Position numbers and translations under genes: made by a program
The notes under the pieces: model-generated
What the model saw: only the letters and a program-made list of their open reading frames with translations
Databases searched by the model: none
Told to the model about the DNA's origin: nothing
Shown: positions 1 to 17,323 of the stretch, in pieces
Layout: each line of letters starts with the position of its first letter
Position numbering within the stretch: position 1 is the stretch's first letter
Virus record (IMG/VR): IMGVR_UViG_3300009159_005558
Coordinates: 1-50,688 of that record
Length of the DNA stretch: 50,688 bases
DNA from: a virus
Strand: one strand, 5' to 3'

Positions 1-648
1 ATTGCTGAAGAACTACAACGTCTTGGGCATTGGGAATTTGGCAGTACACTGGAAATACTCAACATATATCAACGCTACTATGCCAACAAGTCTGGGCACA
101 TGCTGGACGTTGGCTGTAACATTGGCACCTGGACTGTACCATTAGCACAGCGATATCCGCAAAATACTATATTGGCCTTTGATTGTCAGCCACCGCTGGT
201 TGAATGCGTACAGCAAACTATACAACTAAATCAATTAACTAACGCACAAGCAACTTGTTGTGCAGTGTCAGACGCTTGCGGTACAGCAACCTATAACAAA
301 ATAGACTATGAATGGGGAGCAAATTTTGGCGCATATGAATTTGAACCACCTTACGCACAGTCTGACTTTAACGGACAAACACTAGCGGTAACTGATACCA
401 TAGCAACCAGAACCATTGACAGTTTGAATCTTGATTCGGTGGTGTTTATTAAATTAGATATAGAAGGTATGGAGTTCAAGGCCCTTGAAGGCGCTGTCAA
501 TACTATACAACGCTGTGGACCTTTTGTGGCATTTGAACATCATAAAACTGATAGAAAAGCGGCCGAACAATTGTTACAGGATTTAAACTATACAATACAT
601 CACATGACCATTGGGCAAATGACTCTAGCTACGCCAGCTGATTTGTAA
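1..648 (+). CDS. FkbM-type SAM-dependent methyltransferase, 5' truncated by window edge
   Basis: The frame is open from base 1, so the gene begins before the window; the internal ATG at 100 lies too close to the SAM motif to be the start. About 215 codons are visible. DVGCNIGTW (visible codons 36-44) is the glycine-rich SAM-binding motif I. KLDIEGMEFKALEGA (from about codon 150) matches the DVEG-E..VL.GA block typical of FkbM methyltransferases, which usually O-methylate sugars or polyketide-like hydroxyls. It is the only plus-strand gene at this end and converges on the SGNH-like gene, overlapping its 3' end by 24 nt. With the downstream glycosyltransferases and carbamoyltransferase it fits glycan or small-molecule decoration, which is inference. 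The family call is fairly secure; the substrate is unknown. Confidence 0.85.
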   Translation: MAEELQRLGHWEFGSTLEILNIYQRYYANKSGHMLDVGCNIGTWTVPLAQRYPQNTILAFDCQPPLVECVQQTIQLNQLTNAQATCCAVSDACGTATYNKIDYEWGANFGAYEFEPPYAQSDFNGQTLAVTDTIATRTIDSLNLDSVVFIKLDIEGMEFKALEGAVNTIQRCGPFVAFEHHKTDRKAAEQLLQDLNYTIHHMTIGQMTLATPADL

Positions 649-1224
649 ATCGTTTTTATCACTGGCTAGACAATCTAACACTTGTTGGGCAAACAGTTGA
701 TTTTGCTCTGTGCTAAAATGATTTCTTCTATCATCATTTATAAGAGCTGACCCTGAGTGGTCAGCACCTAGACTTAATTCAACCAATGGTGTTGAGACTT
801 TGGTGCCTGACAGCAGTTTAAACGGCTCTTGACTGCTGCTAAATGATTGGAAGTGCAACACTTGACGTCCTGCCAACAGTTGATTCAGTTCTAAATACCA
901 ATGTTTTACTGCCCACAAGCTGATTTCGTCATCAGCAAAATATTTAAGATACTGTTGTTTGACCTGTTCAGCTTCGTGATTCTTAAACAGTTTTTGAGCA
1001 CTGAGTGGTCTATGCGGGTTGGTATGGCAAAAGATAAACGTCTGCATATCTGGAAAGCTGGCCAAATTCTCTAAGAGATTTTTTCTAGTCAACCACCAGC
1101 TGTCGCCGGGAAATCCTCGTCCACGTAGTTCACAACCTAATTTAGCAGCAACTGCATTGGGCCAATCTGTAACTTCCTTGCGATAATAACAAAAGCTATC
1201 ACCACCTATGTATAAGCGTTTCAC
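625..1224 (-). CDS. SGNH-hydrolase-like protein
   Basis: 199 residues. The N-terminus reads YIGGDSFCYY, where GDS corresponds to block I of SGNH/GDSL hydrolases and holds the candidate nucleophile Ser. GRGFPGDSWW (about residues 35-44) sits where the block II glycine is expected. Near the C-terminus, DDRRNHFS resembles the terminal D..H block. Such enzymes hydrolyse esters, often acetyl groups on carbohydrates. The start is GTG, forming a GTGA overlap with the carbamoyltransferase stop, so the two are translationally coupled. It is the last gene of the minus-strand operon. No signal peptide or membrane segment is visible. Sequence identity to characterised SGNH enzymes looks low, so the fold call is moderate and the substrate unknown. 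Confidence 0.6.
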   Translation of the reverse strand: MKRLYIGGDSFCYYRKEVTDWPNAVAAKLGCELRGRGFPGDSWWLTRKNLLENLASFPDMQTFIFCHTNPHRPLSAQKLFKNHEAEQVKQQYLKYFADDEISLWAVKHWYLELNQLLAGRQVLHFQSFSSSQEPFKLLSGTKVSTPLVELSLGADHSGSALINDDRRNHFSTEQNQLFAQQVLDCLASDKNDLQISWRS

Positions 1225-2696
1225 GAGTGTACCCGAACGCCGTACAGTTGTTCAAAGCGATCTGCGTCAGCACGGTCATTGACCATGGGTTCGCCACGTA
1301 TGTTCAGGCTGGTATTGAGTAACACAGGGCAACCAGTCTGTTCCATCCAGGCTTCTAACAGTCGCCTTATACCTGACCCGTCTTTGGGCACTGTTTGTAT
1401 GCGACTGGTTCCATCTATGTGAATGACTGCTGGGAATACATCAGGATACTTACAACGTCCAACAATCTGCATGTAACGGCTATCACTCCACCCTGAGGGC
1501 ATTTCAAAATAAAGATCAGCATATTCCTCTAACACCACCGGAGCAAACGGACGGAACTGTTGACGACGTTTGATCGCATTTACTCTATCTTTTATATCCG
1601 GTCCCCTGGGGTCGGCGAGGAGACTTCTATTTCCAAGAGCTCTGGGTCCAAACTCTGCCCGACCGCTAGCGACACCGCAGATTCTATCACTGAGTAAACT
1701 ATCGACGATGGCATCAACAGGATATTCTCCTGTGATTTCATGGCCAAGGTACGCATCTCTCCAGTTAATTCTGTGTCCGTATGCCAATGCGGCAGCGCCA
1801 AGACTGCTACCAGCGTCACCAGGACAAGGCATAATCCAAATGTTTTCAAAAAATTCACCAAGTTTTCTATTAGCAAGACAGTTTAAAGCAACGCCACCCA
1901 TGTAGACTAAATTAGAGCTCCATCCAAACTCTCGGGCGTAACGCATTATATTATATATCAGTTGTTCTGTTAAAACCTGCGCACTAGCAGCAATATCTTC
2001 ATTACTGGCCTCAGGTAAGAATCCAGGATCAATACCTATGTGTAGATTTTCACTGAGCAAAGGGCGTAGTTCTTCAACATAACGAGGTTCACCCCAAGCT
2101 GCCATGCCCATGGTAATGTATTCTTCATCCAACGGGTGTAGGCCAATACGCTGAGTAACAGCACTGTAAAACAGGCCTATTGAGCGTGGGTAGCGTTGTC
2201 CCCATAACTTGTGATATTGTGCCAGACCCGTTTGATCATAATGTGCGGCATATATTGATACAGTATCAAACTCACCAATGGCATCTATTACAACCACTGT
2301 GGCCCGGTTGTAAGGGCTGGTCTGAAAGCCAGCGGCCGCGTGACTAAGGTGATGATTATAACTTTTAATATGTTTGGGTAGATATTGTAACCAAGCACCC
2401 AATTGTTGTTTAAGTATTTGTCTAGTGGTCAAACTGCCAAAATCAACACCTTCTCCTGATCTTAAACGACGCAACTGTTTGATCAATGGACGTTCATAAT
2501 ATGCTATGGTGTCTATAGGGTATTCACAAAACTCATTCAACATGCTGGAATGAATATTGCTATCATTCTTGCGTTTACTGTAGCGTTCACTGTGTCCAGC
2601 AAATACAATATCACCGTGCGTGTCGATCAAGGTGGCAGCGGCATCGTGAAAGCCTGCACTGATACCAAGTATATGTTGAACTGGTGCTAGTTTCAT
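1221..2696 (-). CDS. Carbamoyltransferase, NodU/CmcH/TobZ family
   Basis: 491 residues. The N-terminal Kae1-like domain starts HILGISAGFHDAAATLI and carries HHLSHAAAGF near residue 115, the metal/nucleotide-site motif of the family. YMGGVALNCLANR lies near residue 265. The C-terminal domain contains the signature GRAEFGPRALGNRSLLADPR near residue 343 and LLNTSLNIRGEPMV near the end. These enzymes use carbamoyl phosphate and ATP, via a carbamoyl adenylate, to carbamoylate hydroxyl groups on sugars or antibiotics (NodU, CmcH, TobZ). The length is slightly short of the usual 550-600. Its ATG overlaps the stop of a 33-codon gene (ATGA) and its stop overlaps the SGNH-like start (GTGA). Both domains look intact, so it is probably functional; the acceptor is unknown. 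Confidence 0.93.
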   Translation of the reverse strand: MKLAPVQHILGISAGFHDAAATLIDTHGDIVFAGHSERYSKRKNDSNIHSSMLNEFCEYPIDTIAYYERPLIKQLRRLRSGEGVDFGSLTTRQILKQQLGAWLQYLPKHIKSYNHHLSHAAAGFQTSPYNRATVVVIDAIGEFDTVSIYAAHYDQTGLAQYHKLWGQRYPRSIGLFYSAVTQRIGLHPLDEEYITMGMAAWGEPRYVEELRPLLSENLHIGIDPGFLPEASNEDIAASAQVLTEQLIYNIMRYAREFGWSSNLVYMGGVALNCLANRKLGEFFENIWIMPCPGDAGSSLGAAALAYGHRINWRDAYLGHEITGEYPVDAIVDSLLSDRICGVASGRAEFGPRALGNRSLLADPRGPDIKDRVNAIKRRQQFRPFAPVVLEEYADLYFEMPSGWSDSRYMQIVGRCKYPDVFPAVIHIDGTSRIQTVPKDGSGIRRLLEAWMEQTGCPVLLNTSLNIRGEPMVNDRADADRFEQLYGVRVHS

Positions 2697-2794
2697 TTAT
2701 AGATAAACGGATCTCTTTTGCGTAGTTCTTTAAGCTTCTTACGATAGCGTATTTCCAATCGAATACGACTGATTATGTTTTTTATCCAAGACAT
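2693..2794 (-). CDS. Small basic protein, 33 aa, coupled to carbamoyltransferase
   Basis: An ATG at 2794 opens a 33-codon frame ending in TGA at 2693. The protein begins MSWIKNIISRIRLEIRYRKK and ends with KELRKRDPFIYK. It is strongly basic, probably helical, with an N-terminal Trp/Ile-rich amphipathic stretch. Support for it being real: it fills the otherwise empty space between two genes, overlaps the upstream gene by 13 nt, and overlaps the carbamoyltransferase start exactly as ATGA. A GGAG lies 11 nt before the ATG, slightly far. The aromatic DPFIYK tail looks constrained rather than random. The function is unknown; it could be a small partner of the carbamoyltransferase or an unrelated phage peptide. 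Confidence 0.6.
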   Translation of the reverse strand: MSWIKNIISRIRLEIRYRKKLKELRKRDPFIYK

Positions 2795-3834
2795 GATATT
2801 TGTTTCTCCATATAATCTGCGTCCCACCAATGATACGGGTACTGCACTTGTGCTTCATTGGTTCTTATTGCACAAACATTTAAGTGAGTATTTAACTGTG
2901 CCCAGATCGCCTGGCAATCTTCTGTGCCAAAGCTACGTTGTAAGTCCACTTGTCCCACCTGCGGGTGTCCTATTGTTAAACTTTTATCTTCTGGGTCAAA
3001 GTTGTTGTCACGGAGCCATCCTCTAAATTCTTTAAGGTGATTGATCTGCCAGGGCCTGTTGGATGGGTCTACTCCCCACTCTATATCAAAGTCTCCGGCA
3101 GCTTCGGTTTGTGCTTTGAGGCTAGTTGTGGTTAGTTCACCTATTCTACTGTCACGCCCTTCATCGTTGAACACTTCCCAATGGTGTTTGCCCACTGCTT
3201 TGTTAACGCCCACATATACTCCGCCCAGTGTACGATTGATAGTTTCTACGCCAAACAATTCATAATCTGCTTCATCCAGAGTAAAACGTGGTGCCCGTAA
3301 CCAACACATGAGTTGACTGGGTCTTTCCCACTCGGGTGCTGTGTGTTTTTTACGCCAGCTCAGTTGCCACGATTCAAACTCGTGACACAACAGATTTAAC
3401 TGTCTAATATGCCAGCGTGTGGTGTTGTCTGCCCGCCAATAGTAGTCGCTGATATGCCCGCTACTGCCTTGTAAGTCTTCAAAATAACGATGTAGCTGAT
3501 TAAAATGTGCATGGTCAACACCCTGATCCTCTGCTACACTGTTGGCCAGACTAAAGTGATCGTTGATTTGATAACCAATATTGGCTCGGTTAATGGCCTC
3601 AATGCTTTGGTTTATTTTTTCCAGTATATAAGTGCCATTTCTAACACTGTCAGCAAATCCTAAAAAACAAAAGTTCTTTTCTAAATGATATTCTTTGGCA
3701 ATCAACTCATTCAGGGCTTGAAGCCATTTGCGACTCAATGTATTATCGGCCACGTTGATGTACACAGTCAGGGCATCTGTGCCTGTGCCTAGATCTATTT
3801 CAACAACATCAAGCAATTGAGTTGTACCATTCAT
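2782..3834 (-). CDS. Unknown phage protein, possibly paralogous to the protein at 5097-5897
   Basis: 350 residues from the chosen ATG at 3834 (MNGTTQLLDVVEIDLG). The frame stays open upstream, but that extension lies inside the preceding radical-SAM gene; AGGA precedes the ATG by 11 nt. I do not recognise a catalytic family. It is rich in Trp, His, Asp and Tyr, with no membrane segment or signal peptide. The middle (HEFESWQL, then GGVYVGVNKAVGKHHWEV and FNDEG) resembles the 266-aa protein on the other side of the radical-SAM gene (ELHHCLHAIQ, NPYVGHNPLQIYREND). I infer a distant paralogous pair bracketing that enzyme. The order pair member, radical SAM, pair member suggests joint function, for example as substrate or partner. 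Confidence 0.7.
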   Translation of the reverse strand: MNGTTQLLDVVEIDLGTGTDALTVYINVADNTLSRKWLQALNELIAKEYHLEKNFCFLGFADSVRNGTYILEKINQSIEAINRANIGYQINDHFSLANSVAEDQGVDHAHFNQLHRYFEDLQGSSGHISDYYWRADNTTRWHIRQLNLLCHEFESWQLSWRKKHTAPEWERPSQLMCWLRAPRFTLDEADYELFGVETINRTLGGVYVGVNKAVGKHHWEVFNDEGRDSRIGELTTTSLKAQTEAAGDFDIEWGVDPSNRPWQINHLKEFRGWLRDNNFDPEDKSLTIGHPQVGQVDLQRSFGTEDCQAIWAQLNTHLNVCAIRTNEAQVQYPYHWWDADYMEKQISCLG

Positions 3835-5104
3835 AAATTTCTGGATCCTGTTGTAGTATATCCGACAGAGTATGGGTATCTTTGCGGATCTGTTCCAACT
3901 GTAATATGCGACGTTTGCCCTTGGCAAGCCCAGCTTGATAAGTGTCGGGCCATTGCTCTGAAAACACGGGTCGATTTTTTAACTGTAACAGTACGTCTCG
4001 TAATGCTCCTGTATTTACATTGGCCACCAGCGTGTCTACTTTTTTGTCTAATAGCTCTCTTGGCAAGGCCAATGGACTCAGCACAATATCTGGGCTGAAA
4101 CTAAACACCACTTTGGCCAGGATGTCAACTCCAAATTCTTCTGCAAGTCGTTGTATGTTTTCAACTTCAAACAGGCCTGGCAGGGTAAGGGTAAAATCAA
4201 TACGCATTTGTCGACGATGCCGGGCAATTGCCACGCCGTGGGCAAAATTATCTCGCCATGTACTATAGTCAAGTCCAGTACGGATGTATTCGCCAGTGGC
4301 TCCTGTTCCGTCAATGCTGGCACAGATTTGCCAGTCTCTGACATGCGCTAGGATATCCGTAAACAGATCAACACCACCATAACGGGTGCGACTAAGATTA
4401 GTATTGTACCTGGCATAAACACGTGGACCATCTCCTAATTCAATTATACGTTTCATGTAACGCCAGTGCTGTTCATACATCAACGGTTCACCACCAACCC
4501 AGTATACTTCTTCTACTCTGTGTTGTTCTACTGCTTCAGCAAATTCTGCTTCTACTTGTGTGTCTTGAAATGCACTTATTTGCTCGCGCACTTCGGGTCG
4601 CATCCAGTTGTTTTTGGGATTGTCCCAGTTGATCATGTTGTGCTGACGTTGCTCGCTTTCCCATGCGCTGCTCAACATGTCGCCGCAGGTACGGCATTTA
4701 AAATTGCACAAGTTACTGAAGCGATAGTCCCAGCTGACAGGTTTCATGGTGGTACGACCAGTTGTGTCCGTTGTGTCCCATAAGTCTGCTAACTTATGCC
4801 CAAATAGTCGATTAAAATAGTTTCGATATACGTCTGTGTTTAATAATTTGCTATTGCACACATCGCACTCGGGCAGGGTTTCGCCCGCCATCATACGACG
4901 TCGAACATCACGCATATGATCTCCATTCCAGTGTTCGTCTAGTGTGATAGGAATGTACTTGCCTGTGCCTGAACTGGTATCTATGTACTGTTCAAAACTC
5001 TGTGCCGGCTCACGACTTGCACAACACATACGTCGTTCTGTTTGTGGACTAAGATAGGTATGAGTCCACGCGGCCATACACAGTGTTTTAGGAACTTTAT
5101 TCAT
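3809..5104 (-). CDS. Radical SAM protein with N-terminal twitch-type Cys domain (copy A1)
   Basis: 431 residues from ATG 5104; an in-frame TTG three codons upstream lacks a ribosome site. The radical SAM motif CNFKCRTC supplies Cys 133/137/140, which bind the SAM-cleaving [4Fe-4S] cluster. WVGGEPLMYEQH near residue 203 is the GGEP SAM-amino-group motif. A separate N-terminal set (Cys 9, CC 27/28, and C..C 80/83) follows the pattern of a SPASM/twitch auxiliary-cluster site but lies before the barrel. This matches what I know as 'twitch domain-containing radical SAM' proteins of phages and bacteria, none of known reaction. It overlaps the unknown gene before it by 8 nt and the one after it by 26 nt. 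Confidence 0.9.
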   Translation of the reverse strand: MNKVPKTLCMAAWTHTYLSPQTERRMCCASREPAQSFEQYIDTSSGTGKYIPITLDEHWNGDHMRDVRRRMMAGETLPECDVCNSKLLNTDVYRNYFNRLFGHKLADLWDTTDTTGRTTMKPVSWDYRFSNLCNFKCRTCGDMLSSAWESEQRQHNMINWDNPKNNWMRPEVREQISAFQDTQVEAEFAEAVEQHRVEEVYWVGGEPLMYEQHWRYMKRIIELGDGPRVYARYNTNLSRTRYGGVDLFTDILAHVRDWQICASIDGTGATGEYIRTGLDYSTWRDNFAHGVAIARHRRQMRIDFTLTLPGLFEVENIQRLAEEFGVDILAKVVFSFSPDIVLSPLALPRELLDKKVDTLVANVNTGALRDVLLQLKNRPVFSEQWPDTYQAGLAKGKRRILQLEQIRKDTHTLSDILQQDPEIYEWYNSIA

Positions 5105-5897
5105 GGAATTCAACTTGATCTAGTACCAAAGGCGTAGTGGATTGCTTTACTTGTTTTAATATATCGAGATCCACAGCATGCCCTATAACTGCGGTGCCAG
5201 CATAATATCTAATTTTTTCTTCTCCGTGTAGCTCAACAAATTCTGGATCCTGTCGTTTAAATTCTGCTACAATTTCATCTTTGGTATCTACCAAGTTGTC
5301 AACATGACCAAGGCCGGTCAACACTATACCAGGTTTAATAACGTCATGAAAACGACAAGTGGTGTTTAGCGAACCAAAATCGTTTTCTCTATATATCTGT
5401 AGTGGATTGTGCCCCACGTAGGGATTAATCAACAGTGCGTCACCAAATTGACTATATTCTTTGAATTCAAATGACGCTGGCAACGGAACCGATTGATCAG
5501 TTAACCATTCAATTTGTAAATTGTCTAGTCTATGAGGAGAAGTTTTTCCAAATTGTATAGCATGTAAACAGTGGTGTAGCTCATACAGTAGCGTGTCGTG
5601 TTGTTCTGGAATGTTTTCAAATCCAATTTGACCCACAGAGTTTTCTAGATCTTTATGCAACTGTGCTGTGATAGATATATCATAATGGTCTGTAAGCCAT
5701 TCCCAACCAAAGGCTGTTTTAGCTCGATGCGCCAGCTCAATCATATAGTCAGGTGTGTATGTGTTGGTATCGCGATAAAACGGCGGTTCTTGCTTGTTTT
5801 GTAATTGAGTCAGATCAAAATACAAACGCCCTGTTTCTGTATCGTCTACTACTACTTCTATCACAGGTTGATCGTGGAACTTGATTGATATTTTCAT
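5097..5897 (-). CDS. Unknown phage protein upstream of radical SAM copy A1
   Basis: 266 residues starting at ATG 5897 (MKISIKFHDQPVIEVVVDD). I do not recognise the family. It appears to be a soluble alpha/beta protein: a beta-rich N-terminus, a helical His-rich segment around residues 95-115 (LLYELHHCLHAIQFG), then a beta-rich half with NPYVGHNPLQIY. Similarity in this second half to the protein at 2782-3834 suggests common ancestry; that is a reading by eye. The ELHHCLHAI segment has closely spaced Glu/His that could bind metal, but no HExxH motif is present. It overlaps the radical SAM gene by 8 nt and follows the 332-aa gene with a 9-nt gap, so it sits inside the same operon. Confidence 0.7.
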   Translation of the reverse strand: MKISIKFHDQPVIEVVVDDTETGRLYFDLTQLQNKQEPPFYRDTNTYTPDYMIELAHRAKTAFGWEWLTDHYDISITAQLHKDLENSVGQIGFENIPEQHDTLLYELHHCLHAIQFGKTSPHRLDNLQIEWLTDQSVPLPASFEFKEYSQFGDALLINPYVGHNPLQIYRENDFGSLNTTCRFHDVIKPGIVLTGLGHVDNLVDTKDEIVAEFKRQDPEFVELHGEEKIRYYAGTAVIGHAVDLDILKQVKQSTTPLVLDQVEFHE

Positions 5898-5906
5898 GTG
5901 TATTGA

Positions 5907-6905
5907 TTAACCAAGTATAAAATTTTTCACTGGCTCAACAATTTCATCAAGCCACAATTGTTCTACTGTTTTAGCATCATAGAACTTTTCAAAATTGTGT
6001 TGTATTTTTTGCTGGCTCTCAGCATCTTGGAACAAGGGACGACCAGCTTTGAACTCAGTGTGCAGTCGATCAAGCTCGGCAGCAATTGCACGTAATCGTT
6101 TTTGATCATTGTAGATGTTGTCATAGCTTTCGTCAATCACATGCCCAAATGTTTCAAATCCTAAATCTTGAAAGAACTTCAAAGTATAAGGTGTTCCATA
6201 GGTCATAAACGGATGTCGAAATGCAAACGGTTTAAAACTTTTTTCACTAATAAACAAACGTTGTCCAGGTGGCGGGCACAGTGACTCATCACGGCAAATG
6301 CCCAGAGTTGTTTCTACTACCAAACTGAAGTTGGTGTTGGTGTACCAGTCTGGATTGTAGTGACGGTCATTGCTGACACCCTTGTCGGCCCAGGGCGATT
6401 CGTTGGCATCACGCATGGGTGCATCGCCAGCAATATAGTGTCCGCGTTGCACATAACTGTACAAGCTGTCTGACAGATACGGTGTGGCAACGTTGAACAA
6501 AGCGTCACGATGATCGCGGACCATGTTCATTAACAATAGAAAAAACTTGTCAGGACCTGATGGCGTGGTATTGTACTGCAAGTCTTGATCACTGTATATA
6601 AAATTTTCATTGATCCACATCCAGTTACGTGAACGCAGGGTCATTATGTTATCAACCACTGTGGTGTTTTCGCAGATATAACTGTCCCAAAGATGATTGA
6701 TAATGATCTGGAATCCCAAGTCAGTCCAGTGTTTTATTGTGGCCGCGTCTACATCTCTGTAATCAAAACAAATCACATACTGTGCTGGATCATAAGTGAC
6801 ATTGGGCTTTACAAATTCATGTTGAAAATGTGGTACCCAGTGACTGGCCAATTTGGATCCAAGAAACTCCCAATTACGATCGCAGAGTAATATTTTATTA
6901 GCCAT
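5907..6905 (-). CDS. EK..KP-family protein, possible glycosyltransferase (copy 1)
   Basis: 332 residues from ATG 6905 (MANKILLCDRNWEFLG); the preceding in-frame TTG is not needed. The C-terminal half holds SLVVETTLG, then FISEKSFKPFAFRHPF, then LGFETFGHVIDESYDNI. The same block recurs at 11269-12456 and 49970-50512. KFFLLLMNMVRDHRDALFN mid-protein matches the FLNGRTRPHRKYLL segment of the second copy. The E..EK..KP..HPF arrangement recalls the nucleotide-sugar-binding end of fucosyltransferase-like (GT10) GT-B enzymes, where TEK is conserved. I therefore suggest a glycosyltransferase-like role with modest confidence. It overlaps the preceding radical SAM gene by 8 nt. Confidence 0.65.
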   Translation of the reverse strand: MANKILLCDRNWEFLGSKLASHWVPHFQHEFVKPNVTYDPAQYVICFDYRDVDAATIKHWTDLGFQIIINHLWDSYICENTTVVDNIMTLRSRNWMWINENFIYSDQDLQYNTTPSGPDKFFLLLMNMVRDHRDALFNVATPYLSDSLYSYVQRGHYIAGDAPMRDANESPWADKGVSNDRHYNPDWYTNTNFSLVVETTLGICRDESLCPPPGQRLFISEKSFKPFAFRHPFMTYGTPYTLKFFQDLGFETFGHVIDESYDNIYNDQKRLRAIAAELDRLHTEFKAGRPLFQDAESQQKIQHNFEKFYDAKTVEQLWLDEIVEPVKNFILG

Positions 6906-8115: not shown

Positions 8116-8683
8116 TTACTAGTCCATATAATCTTTGTGCCCATTGTCTGTGACAAACAGCACTATGATGCAGTTTATCGCTGGCTGCGTTGTCCATTAA
8201 CCATGTTTCGTCAGGCAATTTTCTATCTACGTGCAACACAATCTTCTCAGCGGCCAGCATGTCATGATATTCTTGAGATATATCCTCAATCAGTATGTTT
8301 ATAATAGGCACAGAGGCAATTTGACACAATAAATTACACACAATAATTGTGTCAATCCAGGCACAATAAAAGTTTTTTTCTCCTGTGCGTAGTAACTCCT
8401 TAAAGGCAGTACTAGAATTCATTATGTTTTCTTTTTTAGGTATGTTATTGTGCCACATGGTACGTCTAATAGGATTAGGCCATTGTGCTATGACAAAATC
8501 CGGGCGCTGAGTGTGTGTTAGTGCTTGTACCAAATTTGATTGCACATCGCCTGCATTGCCTGCAGGCACGCCTTGGTTGTCAATATCCACGGCCAGAAGC
8601 GCACTCAACACACTTACATAGCAGTCTGCAACAGCAATGCCCACCCCAGCAGTATGACTACAACCCAGTGCTAGTGCTGTCAT
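8096..8683 (-). CDS. SGNH-hydrolase-like protein, second copy
   Basis: 195 residues. ALGCSHTAGVGIAV at the N-terminus resembles SGNH block I with the usual Asp replaced (GCSHT instead of GDS.T). NQGVPAGNAGDVQSNL (about residues 36-51) supplies Gly and Asn at block II/III-like positions. ASDKLHHSAVCHRQWA near the C-terminus fits the D..H block. The order and spacing match a compact SGNH fold, so an esterase or acetyl-transfer role on a carbohydrate is plausible. It is not closely similar to the copy at 625-1224. The start overlaps the stop of the preceding radical SAM gene (ATGA), and the end overlaps the next radical SAM gene by 20 nt. No export signal is seen. Confidence 0.55.
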   Translation of the reverse strand: MTALALGCSHTAGVGIAVADCYVSVLSALLAVDIDNQGVPAGNAGDVQSNLVQALTHTQRPDFVIAQWPNPIRRTMWHNNIPKKENIMNSSTAFKELLRTGEKNFYCAWIDTIIVCNLLCQIASVPIINILIEDISQEYHDMLAAEKIVLHVDRKLPDETWLMDNAASDKLHHSAVCHRQWAQRLYGLVNENTTQ

Positions 8684-9939: not shown

Positions 9940-11276
9940 TATAGTGAATCGTACCAATCTTTTAACACAGGAAATGTCTTAACAAAGTCTTTGCCTCTAC
10001 GTTGATCGTACTGAGTATGGAATTGCTTGAAGTCGTTGTGTAGCTTGGGCATTTCAAATGTGTCGCTGTGCGGAGTCTTGACACGATCCAAATATTCAAT
10101 CAATCTATTTACATGGTTAACTTCATGTTCGTGTATGTAGTCTGCTGTGCGGTGTTGTTCCAACCACATGATCAGGCGATTACGATAATAAAGTAGCAGG
10201 TGCTCCGGCAATACCAATGGGCTTTGGAAACTAGGAAAGCGTAAGATATTAAGTGTAAAACTTACACGTTCTTTACCGTAGACTCGTTTTAGTTTTACTA
10301 GTTGGTCTAACAAGTGATCTAAACTATCCAAGCACAACGCATTAATGGTACACATACAGTGTACCGCTTTGATTGAATCATGCTCCAACAACTCTTGAAC
10401 ATTGTGCATCCATTGACTATAGTCCAGACCGTCACGAATATACTCGGCCTGCCCATCTACAGCTTCCATACTGGTGTATATTTCTAAATGTGGAATGTCC
10501 GCAACTTTCTCAATGAACTCTTGTAGCTTGATTGAGTCCATGCCTAGGTTGCTATTGATTGCCAACTTGGTCGTACTACGACCTTTGTTGTCTTTGAACC
10601 AATCAATCAGCTTCCAGGTCTCGCCTGACATCAATGGCTCGCCGCCAGTAATTCTTAATTCTTGGAGTGTTTGGTGGAGGTCTGACTCCCACCAAGCAAA
10701 GAACGCTTCAACATACGGATTTGTTTCGCCAAAGCGGTATAGTTGACTATGATCGTGAGCGTGAGTAAAGTGGTTACGCCCATCAGACACCAGGCGCTCA
10801 TAGGCACCGTTGGATCGTATGTCTTTAACCCATGTGCTACTGAAAGCAGGGTTACAATAGCTACAAGCGAATTGGCAAGTGCGATCGAATGCAATTTCAA
10901 GCGTACGAAGATTGACATCTTCTTGGCTGGGTGTGTTGTATGCTTCATTTAATGCCTCCAGTGGATAAATTTTACTTTTATATACACGGTCGCTTATAGC
11001 ATCCACGCCCATGTCTTCAATCTTCCAACAGTATTCACAACCACTAGGACGATTGCCTGCCTGCATCATAGCACGATCCAATTTTTTAGTTGGAGTATTG
11101 TGTATGGCTTTAGGATTTGTTTTTAATGCTTCTGTATCAATTGCGTGTGCCGGTGGATGATGGCACGAAGTAGTTTGCCCTGACCCTAGCCAGATAGTGG
11201 CATTGTACCATTTGGCCGCACAGAAGCTGGCACTTTTGGTATCTAATACCTGTTGACGGAATTCTAGTTCATTCAT
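9939..11276 (-). CDS. Radical SAM protein, N-terminal Cys domain subtype B (copy B1)
   Basis: 445 residues from ATG 11276 (MNELEFRQQVLDTKSASFC). The frame is open for 42 more codons upstream, but that lies inside the previous gene. The N-terminal domain differs from the A copies: FCAAKWYNATIW (C19), SCHHPPAHAI (C38), then GCEYCWKIEDMG (C80/C83). It is shared only with the protein at 12440-13855. CQFACSYC gives radical SAM Cys 134/138/141, and RITGGEPLMSGETW lies near residue 209. The C-HHPP-HAI motif with adjacent His could ligate a metal or cluster (inference). It overlaps the EK..KP gene by 8 nt and the next radical SAM start by 1 nt. Confidence 0.9.
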   Translation of the reverse strand: MNELEFRQQVLDTKSASFCAAKWYNATIWLGSGQTTSCHHPPAHAIDTEALKTNPKAIHNTPTKKLDRAMMQAGNRPSGCEYCWKIEDMGVDAISDRVYKSKIYPLEALNEAYNTPSQEDVNLRTLEIAFDRTCQFACSYCNPAFSSTWVKDIRSNGAYERLVSDGRNHFTHAHDHSQLYRFGETNPYVEAFFAWWESDLHQTLQELRITGGEPLMSGETWKLIDWFKDNKGRSTTKLAINSNLGMDSIKLQEFIEKVADIPHLEIYTSMEAVDGQAEYIRDGLDYSQWMHNVQELLEHDSIKAVHCMCTINALCLDSLDHLLDQLVKLKRVYGKERVSFTLNILRFPSFQSPLVLPEHLLLYYRNRLIMWLEQHRTADYIHEHEVNHVNRLIEYLDRVKTPHSDTFEMPKLHNDFKQFHTQYDQRRGKDFVKTFPVLKDWYDSL

Positions 11277-12456
11277 TGATATATTGACAGATAAATTGTT
11301 TGAAACGGCCAGAAAATTGACCAGGCACTTGTGTTCTAAGTTCTGTGTAATGTTGCTGGTTGTATTTACATATATTATAACACTCTTTAAGGAAACTTGC
11401 AAGGTCTTGTTGACATAAATCTTCTACAACTTTGGCCACACGTTCAATACGGTCTTGACTGTTTTCAATTTGATCAAAGCTCTCATCAATCAAGTGGCCA
11501 AATGTTTGAAATCCCAAACGGTGTAGGTCTCTGTAGTAGCCAGTATTGGCCACCACTACAAACGGGTGTGCCATGGCAACGGGTTTCCAAATCTTTTCTG
11601 TCCTAAAACTATAAGGATAGTTGAACACTGTTTCGGTCACTACACTAAAATAGGTATCAATATAGGGCAAAGGATTCACATAGATCTCTCCCCACTCTTT
11701 GTCAAACAAGTGGTCATCCATAAATGTGGTGTTTGGTAACGGCAAATCAACGCGATGTTGATAACGATCCACTTCGTACTGTTTGGGAAGATAATGAATA
11801 TCGCGAGGAACGTACATGAGATTTTGATTGTTGTGCAAAAACTGTATGTTTATTTCTGCCAAGGCTTGATCAGTGTACAAGTATCCACCGTTGGGTTGTC
11901 GTATCAGTTGTAGTCCTCTATCCAAATTGGTCCACAATGCTGACTGTAATAGACCGTTGACATCAAATCTTTCCAATAGATATTTTCTGTGTGGGCGAGT
12001 GCGGCCATTTAAAAATAAAAACTTGTAGGGCTTGACTGTTTTTGTAAAGATTTCTTTGGCCTGCTCAGCGGCCAAAACATTTTCATCAAAGTCAAATACC
12101 TTGGGTAAAAAATACTCATGCAGTATGTGTGGCCAACCCGCAGGTAAATCGCCACCAGTGACCAACAGAATCTTTTGATCCTCAACCAGTTGTTTGATAC
12201 CTTTGAGCAGGCACAGTGTGACCAGTGTTTCAGACCCTTCGCCTGGAATGCTTAATACAATTTTGGCTGAACCGTCGGCAGCTATTTGTTTAATACGTTC
12301 GGTATTGAGATTGAACTGGTTGCGACCAATTACATACACAGCATCGTTGATCAGTTGGTGTTGATTAAAATCCCAAAATTCTGCATCAGCGTATGATTTT
12401 AATTCATTGTATACGTCGCATAGTGTGTCTAGTACTAGTTTACGATTGTTGAGCAT
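11269..12456 (-). CDS. EK..KP-family protein, possible glycosyltransferase (copy 2, full length)
   Basis: 395 residues, ATG 12456. The N-terminal half has alternating strands and helices (KIVLSIPGEGSE; KILLVTGGDLPAGWP) like a Rossmann-type domain. FLFLNGRTRPHRKYLLERF, about residues 143-161, is the shared middle motif. The C-terminal half contains SVVTETVFNYPYSFRTEKIW, KPVAMAHPFVV and LGFQTFGHLIDESFDQIEN. Two-lobed organisation plus the E...TEK motif suggests a GT-B-like glycosyltransferase, but this is inference. It is the best reference for the family in this window: copy 1 (5907-6905) and the split copy (49407-50512) both align to it. It lies between the two B-type radical SAM genes, overlapping them by 17 and 8 nt. 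Confidence 0.65.
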   Translation of the reverse strand: MLNNRKLVLDTLCDVYNELKSYADAEFWDFNQHQLINDAVYVIGRNQFNLNTERIKQIAADGSAKIVLSIPGEGSETLVTLCLLKGIKQLVEDQKILLVTGGDLPAGWPHILHEYFLPKVFDFDENVLAAEQAKEIFTKTVKPYKFLFLNGRTRPHRKYLLERFDVNGLLQSALWTNLDRGLQLIRQPNGGYLYTDQALAEINIQFLHNNQNLMYVPRDIHYLPKQYEVDRYQHRVDLPLPNTTFMDDHLFDKEWGEIYVNPLPYIDTYFSVVTETVFNYPYSFRTEKIWKPVAMAHPFVVVANTGYYRDLHRLGFQTFGHLIDESFDQIENSQDRIERVAKVVEDLCQQDLASFLKECYNICKYNQQHYTELRTQVPGQFSGRFKQFICQYINE

Positions 12457-13855
12457 GATACCTGCACTCGGTCCACCAGGCCGTCATTTCTGGGAACACA
12501 CTCAAAAAGTCTGTGCCATGACGTCGATCTGCTTCTGAGAAGAATCGATAGCAGTCAGCTTTGTTCCGGTTGATATATGCTGGATCTAATCGTTGTCCAT
12601 CACGCATCCAGGCAATGTCACGATCCAAGCGGGCTATTTCATAGTCTTTGAATCCTTGCAGTCTAGTCTCTTCGGTTTCAATTTGACGTATCATCCAGGC
12701 CCATAACTGTTCAAGTTGATCTACATAGCTTTCTGGCAACAGTTGTAGACTTTGCCACGTGGGCTGACGTAGTACCGGAGTATCGAACCAAACACGTTGG
12801 TAAGTCGTGCTGTACAATTTACGCAGTCCAAGAATGCCAGCAAACAAGTGTGGCAATCCAGTGACACTTAGGTTGTTCATTGTAATGATAAATGTTACCG
12901 AGTTGCGTCCTGGAATATCTGTTAGGAATTGATTGACACGATCCCATACCAAATTGAAGTCCATGCCATGGCGAATATATTCTGCTTGTGGGCCAAAACT
13001 GTCAAGACTCACATACTGCATAAAGTGTTCAATCTTCTCGCCTTCACATAGTTCTTTGACATAGCCTTTGTATTTCTGCCACGACTTTTCATCCACACTA
13101 AAGTTACTTGTTACATTAAGATGTAAGTCGGGCTTAGGGTTAGCTAATACATAGTCAAACACACGATAGGTATTCTTGTCCAACATGGGTTCGCCACCGG
13201 TCATGCGGAAGTGTTTGAGTTCTGGATACAGTGTGGGCCACCAATCCCAAAATGCATCTACATAGGGATTGTGCTCGCGAACTGGAATAGGACGATTGCG
13301 GCCCACAAAGTGACCGGGATCATTATGAATAGTGCTTGTAGGATATCCGCCCCATTTATCGACTTCTTGTTGCCAAGTCGAACTAAATTGTGGACTACAA
13401 TAGCTGCAAGACAAATTGCAGGCATGATTAAAATTAACTTCCACATAACTAGGAACAACATCTTCATCTCCGTTTGAATTCATTATACTATCAAAGTCTT
13501 TAGCGGCCCAAGGCTCACCACTACGATAATGGCGATCGCTTAGTTTACCATTGTCTTCCATAGTCCAGCAATAACTACACTCGCCGGGACGTTCTTGCTT
13601 TAGCATAATCTTGCGCTGTTCTTTTTTGTGTGGGGTGTTATGTAATGCTGATGGATTATCTTTTAATAATTCTGCTGGTATTGCGTGTAGGGGCGGATGA
13701 TAGCACGAGTTATTAAGTCCAGTGGGCAGGTGTAGGCTAACTTGTTTCCATTTGGCCAAGCACAGTGCGTGTCCAAGATTCTCTTTCATGAACTCTGCAT
13801 CGCCCAGAAACTTTGATTTAAAGTCTGTTACAACTTCATCGCCTTTGTTTTGCAA
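12440..13855 (-). CDS. Radical SAM protein, N-terminal Cys domain subtype B (copy B2)
   Basis: 471 residues. The start is TTG at 13855: AGAAGG lies 8 nt upstream, and the next in-frame ATG would cut into the N-terminal domain shared with copy B1. That domain reads LCLAKWKQVSLHLPTG (C32), SCYHPPLHAI (C51), HNTPHKKEQR and ECSYCWTMEDNG (C93/C96). CNLSCSYC provides radical SAM Cys 146/150/153, and FRMTGGEPMLDKNTY follows around residue 220. The C-terminal part after the barrel is long and acidic/aromatic. The B copies conserve C..AKW, C.HPP.HAI, HNTP.KK and C.YCW..ED, so they form one orthologous subtype. The substrate is unknown. Confidence 0.9.
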   Translation of the reverse strand: MQNKGDEVVTDFKSKFLGDAEFMKENLGHALCLAKWKQVSLHLPTGLNNSCYHPPLHAIPAELLKDNPSALHNTPHKKEQRKIMLKQERPGECSYCWTMEDNGKLSDRHYRSGEPWAAKDFDSIMNSNGDEDVVPSYVEVNFNHACNLSCSYCSPQFSSTWQQEVDKWGGYPTSTIHNDPGHFVGRNRPIPVREHNPYVDAFWDWWPTLYPELKHFRMTGGEPMLDKNTYRVFDYVLANPKPDLHLNVTSNFSVDEKSWQKYKGYVKELCEGEKIEHFMQYVSLDSFGPQAEYIRHGMDFNLVWDRVNQFLTDIPGRNSVTFIITMNNLSVTGLPHLFAGILGLRKLYSTTYQRVWFDTPVLRQPTWQSLQLLPESYVDQLEQLWAWMIRQIETEETRLQGFKDYEIARLDRDIAWMRDGQRLDPAYINRNKADCYRFFSEADRRHGTDFLSVFPEMTAWWTECRYHAQQS

Positions 13856-13856
13856 G

Positions 13857-14786
13857 TTACCAACCTTCTTGTTGACGTATTACATCCAGCTCTCGCACTG
13901 TGACACCACGATTGTGCCAGTTTGATCTATAGTGTTTCTTAAAAAATGCACTCTCTGGTGCCAACATAGTAATCATGGGCAGATCCAGTTGTGTGGTCAA
14001 ATCCTCGGCCACGCGGCCAGCCAACATTTCTGGGTTTGAGTCTTTGACTGTGTCCCAAAGTTTTTCTAATTCAGCAAAGTCCTGCACCACACGATGGTCC
14101 CATTGCGGAGTGATCATGGTCATATAAGTTCCCATTCGTGCTCCAGCAATACTCCAAATACCGTGATCCGCATCGCGTCCTATATTATGCCATATGGTCA
14201 AGTGATCTAAATTACGATGATGTACTCGTTGCTTAAATTCAGCCAAAGTTGGGCGAGCGCCTTTGTTCAAACACATTTTTACACCCTCACGGAATCCAGC
14301 TCGCCAAGCATGAAACGCTGATCCATTGGGGTAAGTGGTGCTGTAACAGTCATGCATGGGCCAGTATAGTGGGTCAAAACAAAACTCCACTTCAGTTTCA
14401 GCAGAGCCGTCAGTGGCTTCGTGAGTACGCATGTTGTTGACAAAAGTTCGAGTCCATGAACTCAATCCGCCATTGCCATACATAAGGCCATTGACATGAT
14501 TACGGGCTCGCCACCGAAACACTGCACTTTCCCATTGTGCATCTGGCAGATCCAAGGTAAAATTAAAAAATGCAGGGTCTGGTAAGTTGTCACCGTCGAT
14601 CAAAATAAAACGTTCAGTTTCGCTGACTTCGGCCGCGGCTTTGTGTGCGGCATCCGATCCCTTGACTCCGTCTACGCGGTGTGCCCATGGGATTATATTT
14701 TTTATTTTGAGCCAAAACTCTTCTTTCTTAGGTTCGTCATAACTGAGATATACACAGTCAAGATCTGCAATGTCAATTCGGGTCAT
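13857..14786 (-). CDS. GT-A-like glycosyltransferase
   Basis: 309 residues, ATG 14786. The N-terminus VYLSYDEPKKEEFWLKIK followed by RVDGVKGSDAAHKAA and FILIDGDNLPD (DGD at 64-66) fits a GT-A nucleotide-sugar fold with a D.D metal site. VFRWRARNHVNGLMYGNGG continues the acceptor side. Similar proteins are common in T4-like aquatic phages and are annotated only as glycosyltransferases. The start overlaps the previous 114-aa gene by 14 nt. Its TAA at 13857 is one base from the TTG of radical SAM copy B2. It probably transfers a sugar to a glycan, DNA base or virion protein; which one is not determinable here. Confidence 0.7.
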   Translation of the reverse strand: MTRIDIADLDCVYLSYDEPKKEEFWLKIKNIIPWAHRVDGVKGSDAAHKAAAEVSETERFILIDGDNLPDPAFFNFTLDLPDAQWESAVFRWRARNHVNGLMYGNGGLSSWTRTFVNNMRTHEATDGSAETEVEFCFDPLYWPMHDCYSTTYPNGSAFHAWRAGFREGVKMCLNKGARPTLAEFKQRVHHRNLDHLTIWHNIGRDADHGIWSIAGARMGTYMTMITPQWDHRVVQDFAELEKLWDTVKDSNPEMLAGRVAEDLTTQLDLPMITMLAPESAFFKKHYRSNWHNRGVTVRELDVIRQQEGW

Positions 14787-15117
14787 GTTTTTTTAAACTC
14801 CATTTGGTATGAGGACTAGCGTGGTTGACTACAATGCAAACATCATTAACTGCGCATGGTGTGCCGTAGTCACCGGGCATAAGTTTTGCAATTGGATTCA
14901 TGGTCAATACTTTGAGTTTACCATCAACAACTCGCACATGAGTTGGAGGATTAGCATAAGTTTCATGATCAATCTCTATGTAATTACCAGGATCTTCTTG
15001 CATACTGTAAAATAATGGCAAGCCTTGATCATCATAGTACAAACGATAGATTGGAACAGGCAACGAAGTTGTTGGTGCCAGTGCGGCCCAAAACTCTTCG
15101 GGTGTCATTTCACTCAT
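14773..15117 (-). CDS. Conserved small phage protein, unknown function
   Basis: 114 residues, ATG 15117, with a second ATG at codon 4. It is compact, acidic and Pro/Tyr-rich, with the segment IYRLYYDDQGLPLFYSM, then PGNYIEIDHETYA, then VRVVDGKLKVL. The style is that of small conserved proteins seen in T4-like aquatic phages; I know of no function. No Cys motif, signal peptide or membrane segment is present. It overlaps the 94-aa gene before it by 8 nt and the glycosyltransferase after it by 14 nt, so it is co-transcribed with both. The beta-rich YYDD..G..LFYS pattern could be a small binding domain, but that is a guess. Confidence 0.7.
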   Translation of the reverse strand: MSEMTPEEFWAALAPTTSLPVPIYRLYYDDQGLPLFYSMQEDPGNYIEIDHETYANPPTHVRVVDGKLKVLTMNPIAKLMPGDYGTPCAVNDVCIVVNHASPHTKWSLKKHDPN

Positions 15118-15394
15118 TTATACCTTTTTGATTGTTACGACGTTCTTGCACTGTTAGTTTATCATCACCTTTTCTGGCCTTGTTGTGCCGAGGATTGCCA
15201 CACAATTTGCAATTTGGTTTACCGCAATCCATTGCGTGTTTTTTAGCCAAGCGGTGCGGTTGTGCTTCATCAATACGTTTACTTGCTTCGCCAAAGTTTT
15301 GATGTGTTTTAATAATGCCAAGTTGTTTTTTAATTGCTCTCCACGCACGATGCATACGTGTACCGTGTTTAAATTTATCTTCTTCTTTACTCAT
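15110..15394 (-). CDS. Small Cys-motif (putative zinc-binding) phage protein
   Basis: 94 residues. ATG 15394 is chosen because GGAGG lies 5 nt upstream; the longer frame would need a TTG. It is strongly basic. The centre reads RLAKKHAMDCGKPNCKLCGN, giving C-x4-C-x2-C (Cys 57, 62, 65) with His 47 and His 53 before it and His 70 after it, a plausible single zinc site. The N-terminal half (MHRAWRAIKKQLG) is helical. Proteins with an ...A.DCG.P.C.LCGNPR motif are familiar in aquatic T4-like phages but uncharacterised. Its start overlaps the glycosyltransferase stop as ATGA. A nucleic-acid-binding or RNA-polymerase-modifying role is possible but unproven. Confidence 0.75.
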   Translation of the reverse strand: MSKEEDKFKHGTRMHRAWRAIKKQLGIIKTHQNFGEASKRIDEAQPHRLAKKHAMDCGKPNCKLCGNPRHNKARKGDDKLTVQERRNNQKGINE

Positions 15395-16164
15395 TGCATC
15401 CTCCAATTTTTAGTGTGATAATGTACAAACCCTGATTGTGCTACCGTCTGTATTCTTAATCCAGGCTGGGTATTTTCCCAAACCATTTCATTGGTCCAAT
15501 TATCCGACAACAACGGCACCATTTCTTTTTTCATATGCACTATGTTAGGGCCTAGTCCTGCAGGCAGTGTAACAAGCTCTGGTCCTAAAATCACAGCGGC
15601 CATTGCATAAACTACATCAGTGGTGGCTTGCTCATCCGGCACTTGTAGTAGTTTTTTAAAAGAATCCCATTGTTCAAATATCTTACGCACCAACTTAAAA
15701 AAATCCTGGGCAGTTTTACTAACACGCCAATAGGTAACAGCATTGTACACATCAGGCAAATGGTTGTGGTCAAATATTTTACGATACTTTCGCGAACGGC
15801 CAGGTTGATTGTAGATATCTCTACAGCCGGTACTGATTACCACATCACGACATTCAAACAAGGCCCACCAATGATCAATTGGGCTGGCCGCAACCATATC
15901 TGCTTCTAGTTTAATTGTTTCTCTATAAGGACTGGCCGCAAAACATTGCCAATCGTTGACGAATCCACCCAAGTTGCCATAGGGCAACGGTATTACATGA
16001 TTGAATACTGGATCACTGCACCGTTTTACTGTTAACACAGAAATATTAGCATCTGGGTGCCATTGGCGAATAGATTGAGCCAATTCAATGGCACAACTCA
16101 AGTAGTCAACACCGTCGGTATCAATGGCTGGTATCAAGTATCCACGTTCAGAGAGTATTGGCAA
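15391..16164 (-). CDS. GT-A-like glycosyltransferase
   Basis: 257 residues. The start is TTG at 16164, supported by GGAG 6 nt upstream; there is no ATG nearby. The N-terminus GYLIPAIDTDGVDYLSCAIE followed by ISVLTVKR is the strand-helix-strand of a nucleotide-sugar-binding domain. TIKLEADMVAASPIDHWW (E.D at 87-89) takes the place of the D.D metal motif. Later segments include DVYNAVTYWRVSKTAQDFF and GFVHYHTKNWRMQ, with a terminal His/Lys-rich strand typical of GT-A enzymes. It overlaps the following gene as ATGA and the preceding glycosyltransferase by 17 nt. The two adjacent enzymes share the same overall plan and may act in sequence. Confidence 0.7.
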   Translation of the reverse strand: MPILSERGYLIPAIDTDGVDYLSCAIELAQSIRQWHPDANISVLTVKRCSDPVFNHVIPLPYGNLGGFVNDWQCFAASPYRETIKLEADMVAASPIDHWWALFECRDVVISTGCRDIYNQPGRSRKYRKIFDHNHLPDVYNAVTYWRVSKTAQDFFKLVRKIFEQWDSFKKLLQVPDEQATTDVVYAMAAVILGPELVTLPAGLGPNIVHMKKEMVPLLSDNWTNEMVWENTQPGLRIQTVAQSGFVHYHTKNWRMQ

Positions 16165-16951
16165 CTATGTCTCCAAGATGTCGTTTGCCCATGGCATGAA
16201 AATCATGATTTAATATGAGCCATTTGTTTTTGTTATCTGCGTCAACAAAATCAACACGATAGGTGTCTTGATCCAACTGTGTCAACGGATGTCCAGCATC
16301 TACACTGACCAAGGGCCAAGGTATAGCAGGCATGCTCAAGGTGTGTCCATCTACTATGTTCATTGCAATACTTAATGCCATGTCGTTGCGATAGGTGTAT
16401 TTTGGAATGCCATACAATTCTACATAATGGCGCCAATTTTTACGTATCATCTGCATGGCGTTAAAAATCAATTCTGCAGTTTGACTGCGACGAAAGATCA
16501 TAACTGTGGCCCAGCTCATAGGCATTTTGTGACGGCCAAAGTAGTTGTTTTCATCAAAGTTGTTGAGACCTGTTACTTCATAAGCATATCTATGAGCTAA
16601 AAAATCTTGATCAACTTCAAACAGAGTACGCAATTGATCACTGGCTACAACATAGTCTGCATCCAATACCAGGGTATGATCCCATGGACTCAGTTCATAA
16701 GCATCTACACGGTTGCCATTGTACCAGGTAGCACTCTTTTCAAAATCTCTAAAATGTCTCCAGTGCGTGTCTGTGGCCACAGCATGCACCACGTGGTCAA
16801 ATGTATAGTTGCTGGGTATGGTTGTTTGATCGGTAATTACGCATACCGGCAAGTCCAAGTGACGATGCACATTTCGCGTGGTCCATTCAGCCAAGGCTAG
16901 ATAATCTATCTGTTCATTGTTGAAGGCAAAGATTACAACGCCAGCGGTCAT
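16148..16951 (-). CDS. GT-A-like glycosyltransferase
   Basis: 267 residues, ATG 16951. The N-terminus TAGVVIFAFNNEQIDYLALA followed by LPVCVITDQ is a typical GT-A start. LVLDADYVVASDQL (D.D at 97-99) is the metal/nucleotide-sugar motif, and MSWATVMIFRRSQTAELIF follows. KWLILNHDFHAMGKRHLG near the end gives the conserved terminal His. The general layout matches the neighbour at 15391-16164, and both may descend from a duplication, although identity is low. Its start overlaps the 100-aa gene as ATGA. It belongs to the operon led by that gene. The acceptor is unknown. Confidence 0.75.
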   Translation of the reverse strand: MTAGVVIFAFNNEQIDYLALAEWTTRNVHRHLDLPVCVITDQTTIPSNYTFDHVVHAVATDTHWRHFRDFEKSATWYNGNRVDAYELSPWDHTLVLDADYVVASDQLRTLFEVDQDFLAHRYAYEVTGLNNFDENNYFGRHKMPMSWATVMIFRRSQTAELIFNAMQMIRKNWRHYVELYGIPKYTYRNDMALSIAMNIVDGHTLSMPAIPWPLVSVDAGHPLTQLDQDTYRVDFVDADNKNKWLILNHDFHAMGKRHLGDIVANTL

Positions 16952-17250
16952 CGTTTTTTGTTCAATTCTTCATATTCTACAAGCCAAGCATTGAGTTGTT
17001 CTTGCCAGCGTTGTAGCACTTGTTCACGGAACTCTTCGGCATTAACTTGCACTGGTGCTTCATACAAGTCTAAAATAACCACATCGCCTGCACAGCATTT
17101 TAATGTAGTCAGCAATTCTGGACCAGCTTGCCATAGACCACCTGCGTGGGCAAATGTAAATTTGGCTTGATATTTTTCTTTTAGTACTCGTCGGGCAGTG
17201 GCGTGATCAAAACGAGCACGGCTGTGGGAAATAAGTTCGTTGGTATCCAT
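16948..17250 (-). CDS. Conserved small phage protein, first gene of the accessory operon
   Basis: 100 residues, ATG 17250. MDTNELISHSRARFDHATAR and FTFAHAGGLWQAGPELLTTL with GDVVILDLYEAPVQVNAEEF and WQEQLNAWLVEYEELNKKR form a compact alpha/beta protein that I associate with a conserved, unassigned family in T4-like phages. No catalytic motif is obvious. It is the most upstream gene of the minus-strand accessory operon, directly after a sigma70-like -10 box and with no visible Shine-Dalgarno sequence, so its mRNA may be leaderless. It is followed with a 4-nt overlap by a glycosyltransferase gene. Linkage to that enzyme may be positional only. Confidence 0.75.
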   Translation of the reverse strand: MDTNELISHSRARFDHATARRVLKEKYQAKFTFAHAGGLWQAGPELLTTLKCCAGDVVILDLYEAPVQVNAEEFREQVLQRWQEQLNAWLVEYEELNKKR

Positions 17251-17256
17251 AGGTTT

Positions 17257-17285
17257 ATTATACTACAAAAAGCGGATAAGGTAAA
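17257..17285 (-). promoter_or_regulatory. Sigma70-like promoter for the accessory operon, predicted leaderless
   Basis: Read on the minus strand, TTTACC (-35-like) is followed by a 17-nt spacer and a perfect TATAAT (-10). The bases after it are AAACCT and then ATG, so the usual start distance puts +1 on the A of the ATG at 17250. The -35 overlaps the base of the terminator hairpin. No late-promoter box is present here, in keeping with early or middle expression by host polymerase. Confidence 0.5.
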
Positions 17286-17305
17286 GGGGCCTAAGCCCCT
17301 TTTGG
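17283..17305 (-). terminator. Hairpin terminator after the tail-fibre genes
   Basis: AAAGGGGC, loop of 4, GCCCCTTT forms a perfect 8-bp stem. On the minus strand it lies 19 nt after the stop of the 321-aa fibre-like gene and is followed by a short T run (TTTA). It probably ends late virion transcripts before the accessory operon. The symmetric stem could also act on the plus strand (TTTT tail). Confidence 0.75.
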
Positions 17306-17323
17306 TAATACTGATTGCAAGGC

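Follow-up and report, generated by a model that had tools for sequence, protein, structure and literature searches.

A fixed nine-gene core with five radical SAM genes, set beside the tail-fibre genes of phages that lack close cultured relatives, may encode a modified-glycan pathway

The analysed stretch (the window) corresponds to a whole IMG/VR contig, a linear fragment of 50,688 bp, in which positions 625-17250 are occupied by 18 minus-strand ORFs, g01-g18, that mostly overlap and, after start correction, are spaced by overlaps or by gaps of at most 85 bp (Table 1). From the lengths of relatives, the start of g03 was placed probably at 3834 rather than 3927, and that of g10 near 11276; all the core ORFs are unbroken. 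Upstream of g01-g18, and in the same direction, lie fibre-like genes, the gene of a structural protein of 5,056 aa, and T4-type baseplate genes. The structural protein is a single minus-strand ORF at 20466-35636 between the baseplate and fibre genes, and its counterparts are shorter (about 4,480 and 4,850 aa in two contigs) and differ in internal segments. On the plus strand, a mini-cluster at 49407-50687, behind a gp47-like nuclease gene, encodes a protein of 188 aa and a GT-B EK..KP protein of half size, and ends with the beginning of a second amidinotransferase gene. The T4 late promoter TATAAATA was looked for and was absent, so the timing of expression is not readable from it.

Table 1. 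Features of the locus and its borders in the window. Counts out of 45 refer to non-identical IMG/VR loci with full flanks.
Feature	Position	Strand	Class	Evidence and occurrence
FkbM-type methyltransferase	1-648	+	accessory	PF05050 1.6e-13; 3/45 loci; 5′ end cut by contig
g01, SGNH-like	625-1224	-	accessory	GDS motif only, no family match; 7/45 loci
g02, O-carbamoyltransferase (NodU/TobZ type)	1221-2696	-	core	PF16861 5e-48, PF02543 5e-36; 45/45 loci
g03, phage-only protein	2782-3834	-	core	AF2 pLDDT 87, no PDB fold match; 45/45 loci
g04, N-twitch radical SAM	3809-5113	-	core	NF033640 281 bits; own clade, support 1.0
g05, 266 aa, no assigned function	5097-5897	-		0/45 loci
g06, EK..KP protein, GT-B type by homology to g11	5907-6908	-	accessory	17/45 loci
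g07, N-twitch radical SAM	6898-8115	-	core	NF033640 331 bits
g08, SGNH-like	8096-8683	-	accessory	motif only; 5/45 loci
g09, N-twitch radical SAM	8680-9957	-	core	NF033640 394 bits
g10, N-twitch radical SAM	9939-11276	-	core	NF033640 303 bits
g11, EK..KP protein, predicted GT-B fold	11269-12456	-	core	AF2 pLDDT 92.6, Foldseek; 42/45 loci
g12, N-twitch radical SAM	12440-13855	-	core	NF033640 300 bits; at expected place in 12 gp6-seeded contigs
g13, GT-A candidate (DGDN motif)	13857-14786	-	core	mean column identity 77%, 34 relatives
g14, 114 aa, conserved, no assigned function	14773-15117	-		38/45 loci
g15, 98 aa, basic, CxxC	15110-15406	-		weak phrog_4499 match, 4e-3; 3/45 loci
g16, GT-A candidate (invariant AD of E-A-D motif)	15391-16164	-		phrog_1903 8e-6 (no assigned function); conservation
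g17, GT-A candidate, g16 paralogue	16148-16951	-		g16/g17 profiles cross-match in relatives
g18, 100 aa, conserved next to fibre genes	16948-17250	-		27/45 loci
g19-g21, tail-fibre-like virion genes, fixed slot border	17324-20303	-		adjoin g18 in relatives and in both cassette-less contigs
Half-size GT-B EK..KP protein	49970-50512	+		GTBx profile 3e-24
Second amidinotransferase, 5′ fragment	50487-50687	+		profile 1e-11; cut by contig end

The initial annotation had described about 19 overlapping minus-strand genes at this place; the common strand and the mostly overlapping arrangement stood, and the count became 18. The five radical SAM proteins that it named all belong to NCBIfam NF033640 (N-terminal twitch), scoring 281-394 bits against a cut-off of 170. 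Their catalytic cysteines are intact: seven are invariant in all five paralogue sets (~340 sequences), three in the SAM-cluster motif (CxxxCxxC) and four for an N-terminal auxiliary cluster, at a mutual identity among the paralogues of only 18-33%. In the tree (midpoint rooting), g04 and g07 form clean clades (support at least 0.99), g10 and g12 form one group with no clean split, and g09 is not resolved. The NodU/CmcH-type carbamoyltransferase was confirmed as g02, which matched a novobiocin-type carbamoyltransferase, GdmN and TobZ in the PDB and belongs to a set of O-carbamoyltransferases with conserved HHLSHA and GRAEFGPRALGNRS stretches; the adjoining methyltransferase and the amidinotransferase-like gene beyond the structural block were likewise recovered (Table 1).

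The other named classes held in part. Both EK..KP proteins, g06 and g11, are present. The top Foldseek matches of the g11 model were GT-B enzymes including the fucosyltransferase 2nzw, at a moderate level (TM 0.3-0.5, best E 1e-3), which points to a GT-B glycosyltransferase by fold; a Pfam scan of the g11 family gave nothing consistent, and g06 matched the GT-B profiles of the locus at 2e-26 to 5e-19. The three proposed GT-A glycosyltransferases, g13, g16 and g17, are weakly assigned candidates at the motif level (D-x-D type) only: g13 had no Pfam family match and no PDB sequence match, and g16/g17 had no PDB sequence match and no consistent Pfam match across 27 relatives. The two SGNH-like proteins, g01 and g08, are weakly assigned at the motif level, and it is a related protein of the same locus, not g01 or g08 themselves, that matched PF13472. 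The g03 model found no fold match in the PDB, and its fold relatives are phage proteins only, one of them from Agrobacterium phage Atu_ph07.

IMG/VR scans seeded with g09, g02 and g03 each matched more than 200 stretches, and the best-80 lists are biased towards close relatives. Among the 45 non-identical loci, the order of the nine core genes (g13, g12, g11, g10, g09, g07, g04, g03, g02) was the same in 43, and the complete set was present in 41. Because these loci had been seeded on the cassette itself, an independent scan was seeded on the baseplate gene gp6. Fifteen contigs were tested and one, ending just after gp6, was left out; g12 followed the fibre genes, in the same orientation, in 12 of the 14 informative contigs, one of these 12 being cut by the contig end. 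Pairwise dN/dS medians of 0.06-0.12 for every core gene indicated strong purifying selection. The longest close relatives measure 315-364 kb, and 12 large relatives (G001-G012, 236-364 kb) carry 10-15 NF033640 N-twitch matches each, five of them within the cassette; about half of the matches per genome are dispersed outside it.

Neighbourhood clustering of 1,920 proteins from 100 non-redundant loci (ORFs of at least 90 aa) showed that the conserved unit extends past the window. Beyond g02, relatives carry a convergent operon of an amidinotransferase, two GT-B genes, a 659-aa g13-like gene (other strand), a DegT sugar aminotransferase and a nucleotide-sugar SDR, usually followed by ThyX. Among loci with enough flank, each of the first six genes, up to the SDR, was present in 78-92% (amidinotransferase 48/61, GT-B 55/60 and 47/60, DegT 34/38, SDR 34/38). 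For the window's own phage the amidinotransferase is supplied by contig L086, which overlaps window positions 1-5018 at 99.5% identity and continues with a complete FkbM gene (252 aa, at 4371-5129 of that contig) and a complete amidinotransferase. The amidinotransferases of the locus, from L086 and relatives, matched human AGAT (4e-17) and StrB1 (5e-11), had no Pfam match, and kept the active-site cysteine stretch in all 67 sequences. The best PDB match of DegT was a glutamine--scyllo-inositol transaminase (2e-44), and the best solved match of the SDR was dTDP-glucose 4,6-dehydratase; no sugar nucleotidyltransferase was found among the near-universal locus members. ThyX occurs in all 12 large relatives tested and near the locus in many relatives, and was rejected as an obligatory pathway member because it lies more than 100 kb from the cassette in two of them, G008 and G009. 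A carbamoyltransferase and radical SAM enzymes together with an amidinotransferase, DegT and SDR are a gene set typical of amino-sugar or aminocyclitol decoration.

Collectively, the cassette is a near-universal core pathway within its phage group, and the strictly conserved set beside the fibre genes comprises about 15 enzyme genes. The initial annotation had proposed a biosynthetic cluster, which is borne out by the conserved order, the purifying selection and the DegT, SDR and amidinotransferase genes of the same locus; it had also called the operon accessory, and that description was not supported. The expected co-occurrence of the set in related phages was found, and the scattering, independent gain and loss or inactivation that it had named as counterevidence apply to the accessory g01, g05, g06, g08 and FkbM and not to the core.

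Other gene sets can occupy the slot. The two gp6-seeded contigs without g12, G031 and G021, still keep g13-g21. The G031 slot, seen in L325 (G031 1-20000), holds a different set: an orthologous SDR, several other radical SAM proteins, a g03-like protein (2e-8), three SGNH-like proteins, a g13-like protein and a possible protein of the 2OG-Fe(II)-dioxygenase type, with no recognisable carbamoyltransferase or amidinotransferase. In G021, where only ~3 kb past g13 is visible, SDR-like, GT-B, different radical SAM and SGNH-like genes were found. The cassette is thus swapped for another set in one of the 14 informative contigs (G031) and apparently in a second (G021), unless the partly seen slot of G021 holds it farther on. 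A slot with alternative gene sets is the pattern of serotype-like loci.

The baseplate genes agree with the T4-like label given earlier, and by gp6 the nearest cultured phages, Phosso and 121Q among them, are jumbo phages that share only ~34% identity; no cultured phage stands close to this group. In cultured phages, tblastn found no homologue of g13, g03 or g11 and radical SAM matches of only 24-27%, and none of the jumbo relatives Phosso, SCTP-2, 121Q and Atu_ph07 has an N-twitch radical SAM protein above the NF033640 cut-off. Vibrio phage K566 (L166, 254,938 bp) has four clustered radical SAM genes related to the N-twitch family, two of them over or near that cut-off, and may serve as a culturable model. 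The single-cell marine virus AG-345-D19 (L338, L339) arranges such genes differently: besides more than one amidinotransferase it has a carbamoyltransferase that shares 52% identity with g02 and a radical SAM gene, and a single contig of 8 kb holds these two together with an amidinotransferase. In bacterial and archaeal genomes, exact-pattern seeding, which misses distant relatives, found no relative of g03 or g09, so there is no cellular version of the cassette from which to read its function.

We consider it probable that the locus encodes a modified-glycan pathway, and if it does, the virion is favoured as the target, with somewhat less assurance. The two together, namely a single pathway of many enzymes whose product, a sugar or cyclitol unit with heavy modification, is transferred most likely onto the phage's own tail fibres or baseplate, are put forward tentatively, at a little under an even chance. 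The substrates and the order of reactions that we infer are these. The SDR and the DegT aminotransferase would yield an amino sugar; the amidinotransferase would convert an amine to a guanidine with arginine as donor; the GT-B enzymes (g11 and relatives) and the candidate GT-A enzymes (g13/g16/g17) would build or attach the sugar unit; the five radical SAM enzymes may perform C-H chemistry on it (dehydrogenation, epimerisation or deoxygenation); and the carbamoyltransferase would cap a hydroxyl. The predicted product is an amino/guanidino/carbamoyl-modified glycan, most likely carried on the tail fibres and otherwise on the host surface. Tail fibres and baseplate are preferred because the locus is fixed beside their genes as a co-directional continuation; this adjacency could instead mean shared late expression or a recombination hotspot. 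Also weighing against the reading are the failure of the GT-A candidates to match any family or structure, the lack of a sugar nucleotidyltransferase among the near-universal genes, a core gene (g03) whose fold matches nothing known, and the LPS/O-chain interpretation that others gave to comparable genes.

If the proposed pathway is real, it would rank with the richest modification pathways that phages encode and would provide new enzymes. An abundance of radical SAM genes in phage genomes has been remarked on since 2010, to our knowledge with no function assigned to them, and we know of no description of the product of such a cluster. A fixed, selected radical SAM set with recognisable sugar chemistry at its edges turns this puzzle into testable predictions, the expected signature being an amino/guanidino/carbamoyl mass shift on fibres, host surface or DNA. 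We hold it possible, but doubtful, that a lineage of uncultured jumbo phages has evolved aminoglycoside-type chemistry of its own, in which five dedicated radical SAM enzymes, with amination, guanidinylation and carbamoylation, give a new class of decorated sugar on virion fibres (or released), the slot in related phages encoding alternative versions.

The main rival, which we regard as unlikely though worth serious attention, is that the enzymes alter the host surface polysaccharide (LPS/O-chain or capsule) during infection and mask the receptor from competing phages. The sugar-nucleotide enzymes, the glycosyltransferases and the SGNH, methyl- and sulfotransferase genes that come and go as accessories do look O-antigen-like; large cyanophages have LPS-type clusters (PMC3037559), pelagimyophage glycosyltransferases have been given a host-surface reading (PMC7029224), and both groups of authors read comparable genes as LPS/O-chain functions. 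However, the locus sits within the virion-gene block, none of its recurrent gene families was recognised as a flippase, polymerase or acetyltransferase, and the core is strictly conserved whereas host surfaces vary. Twitch/SPASM radical SAM proteins often modify peptides, and the fibre genes adjoin the locus, so that the radical SAM enzymes might act on peptides or proteins (RiPP-like, for example on fibre proteins) while the sugar enzymes serve a separate product. This appears improbable: the radical SAM genes are near-completely co-conserved with the sugar enzymes, and no small conserved ORF was recovered in the block in a clustering of ORFs of at least 90 aa. A RiPP precursor was rejected, because g02-g13 are packed too tightly, with gaps of 85 bp at most, to hold an ORF for a precursor peptide.

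Hypermodified DNA had been named earlier as a substrate beside antibiotics and glycans, and a locus that carbamoylates or guanidinylates phage bases is now judged very unlikely. A known phage carbamoyltransferase of the superfamily shared with g02 makes 5-carbamoyloxymethylcytosine, but it requires 5-hydroxymethylcytosine and pairs with a thymidylate-synthase homologue (PMC8670742), whereas none of the 18 large relatives, of which ten span 317-364 kb, had a PF00303 enzyme (thymidylate synthase/dCMP hydroxymethylase), which argues against this kind of modification. The nearness of ThyX in many relatives would fit DNA chemistry, but not its distance in G008 and G009; moreover, sugar aminotransferase and glycosyltransferases are unneeded for such chemistry, and the closest solved relatives of g02 are antibiotic carbamoyltransferases. 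Least probable of all is that infection or lysis sets free a diffusible product, either aminoglycoside-like or a signalling molecule: aminoglycoside biosynthesis does use DegT, amidinotransferase, carbamoyltransferase and auxiliary-cluster radical SAM enzymes, and an inositol transaminase and StrB1 are among the matches of DegT and of the amidinotransferase, but the conserved locus, whose position is fixed beside fibre genes, showed no recognisable gene for cyclitol synthesis, export or self-resistance.

The likeness to aminoglycoside biosynthesis (StrB1, DegT inositol transaminases, TobZ) is one of composition only: amidinotransferase, DegT, O-carbamoyltransferase and auxiliary-cluster radical SAM are shared, whereas none of the recurrent gene families was recognised as a cyclitol (DOI or myo-inosose) synthase. 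Large T4-like cyanophages (PMC3037559) and pelagimyophages (PMC7029224) likewise carry glycan genes, glycosyltransferases and sometimes radical SAM cassettes; the cyanophages also have carbamoyltransferases, and the pelagimyophage host-recognition cluster lies beside tail-fibre genes. Those clusters are variable with little synteny, whereas in the cassette here nine core genes, five of them radical SAM paralogues, stand in fixed order. The marine T4-like genome TARA_ERS488813_N000010 has 12 radical SAM genes, comparable to the 10-15 N-twitch matches per large relative here; its authors note those genes only under Fe-S metabolism (PMC5332604). The closest precedent, by analogy, is the interchangeable module of Campylobacter phages CP220 and CPt10, described in 2010 with five radical SAM genes and a putative glycine amidinotransferase, and there called likely non-essential metabolic genes (PMC2853527). 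Its gene order was confirmed here: the module lies beside baseplate lysozyme and PAAR genes, also has in CP220 two nucleotide-sugar-transferase folds, and, like the cassette, is a radical SAM and amidinotransferase cluster near baseplate genes that is swapped as a unit between relatives. In contrast to the cassette, none of its radical SAM proteins reaches the NF033640 cut-off, the annotation of the clusters includes no carbamoyltransferase, DegT, SDR or GT-B gene, and only the amidinotransferase is clearly, if distantly, related to that of the locus (5e-13). Since CP220/CPt10 and AG-345-D19 carry comparable sets, this kind of module has been noticed before; what is new here is the size, the fixed order, the enzyme complement and the ubiquity of this version.
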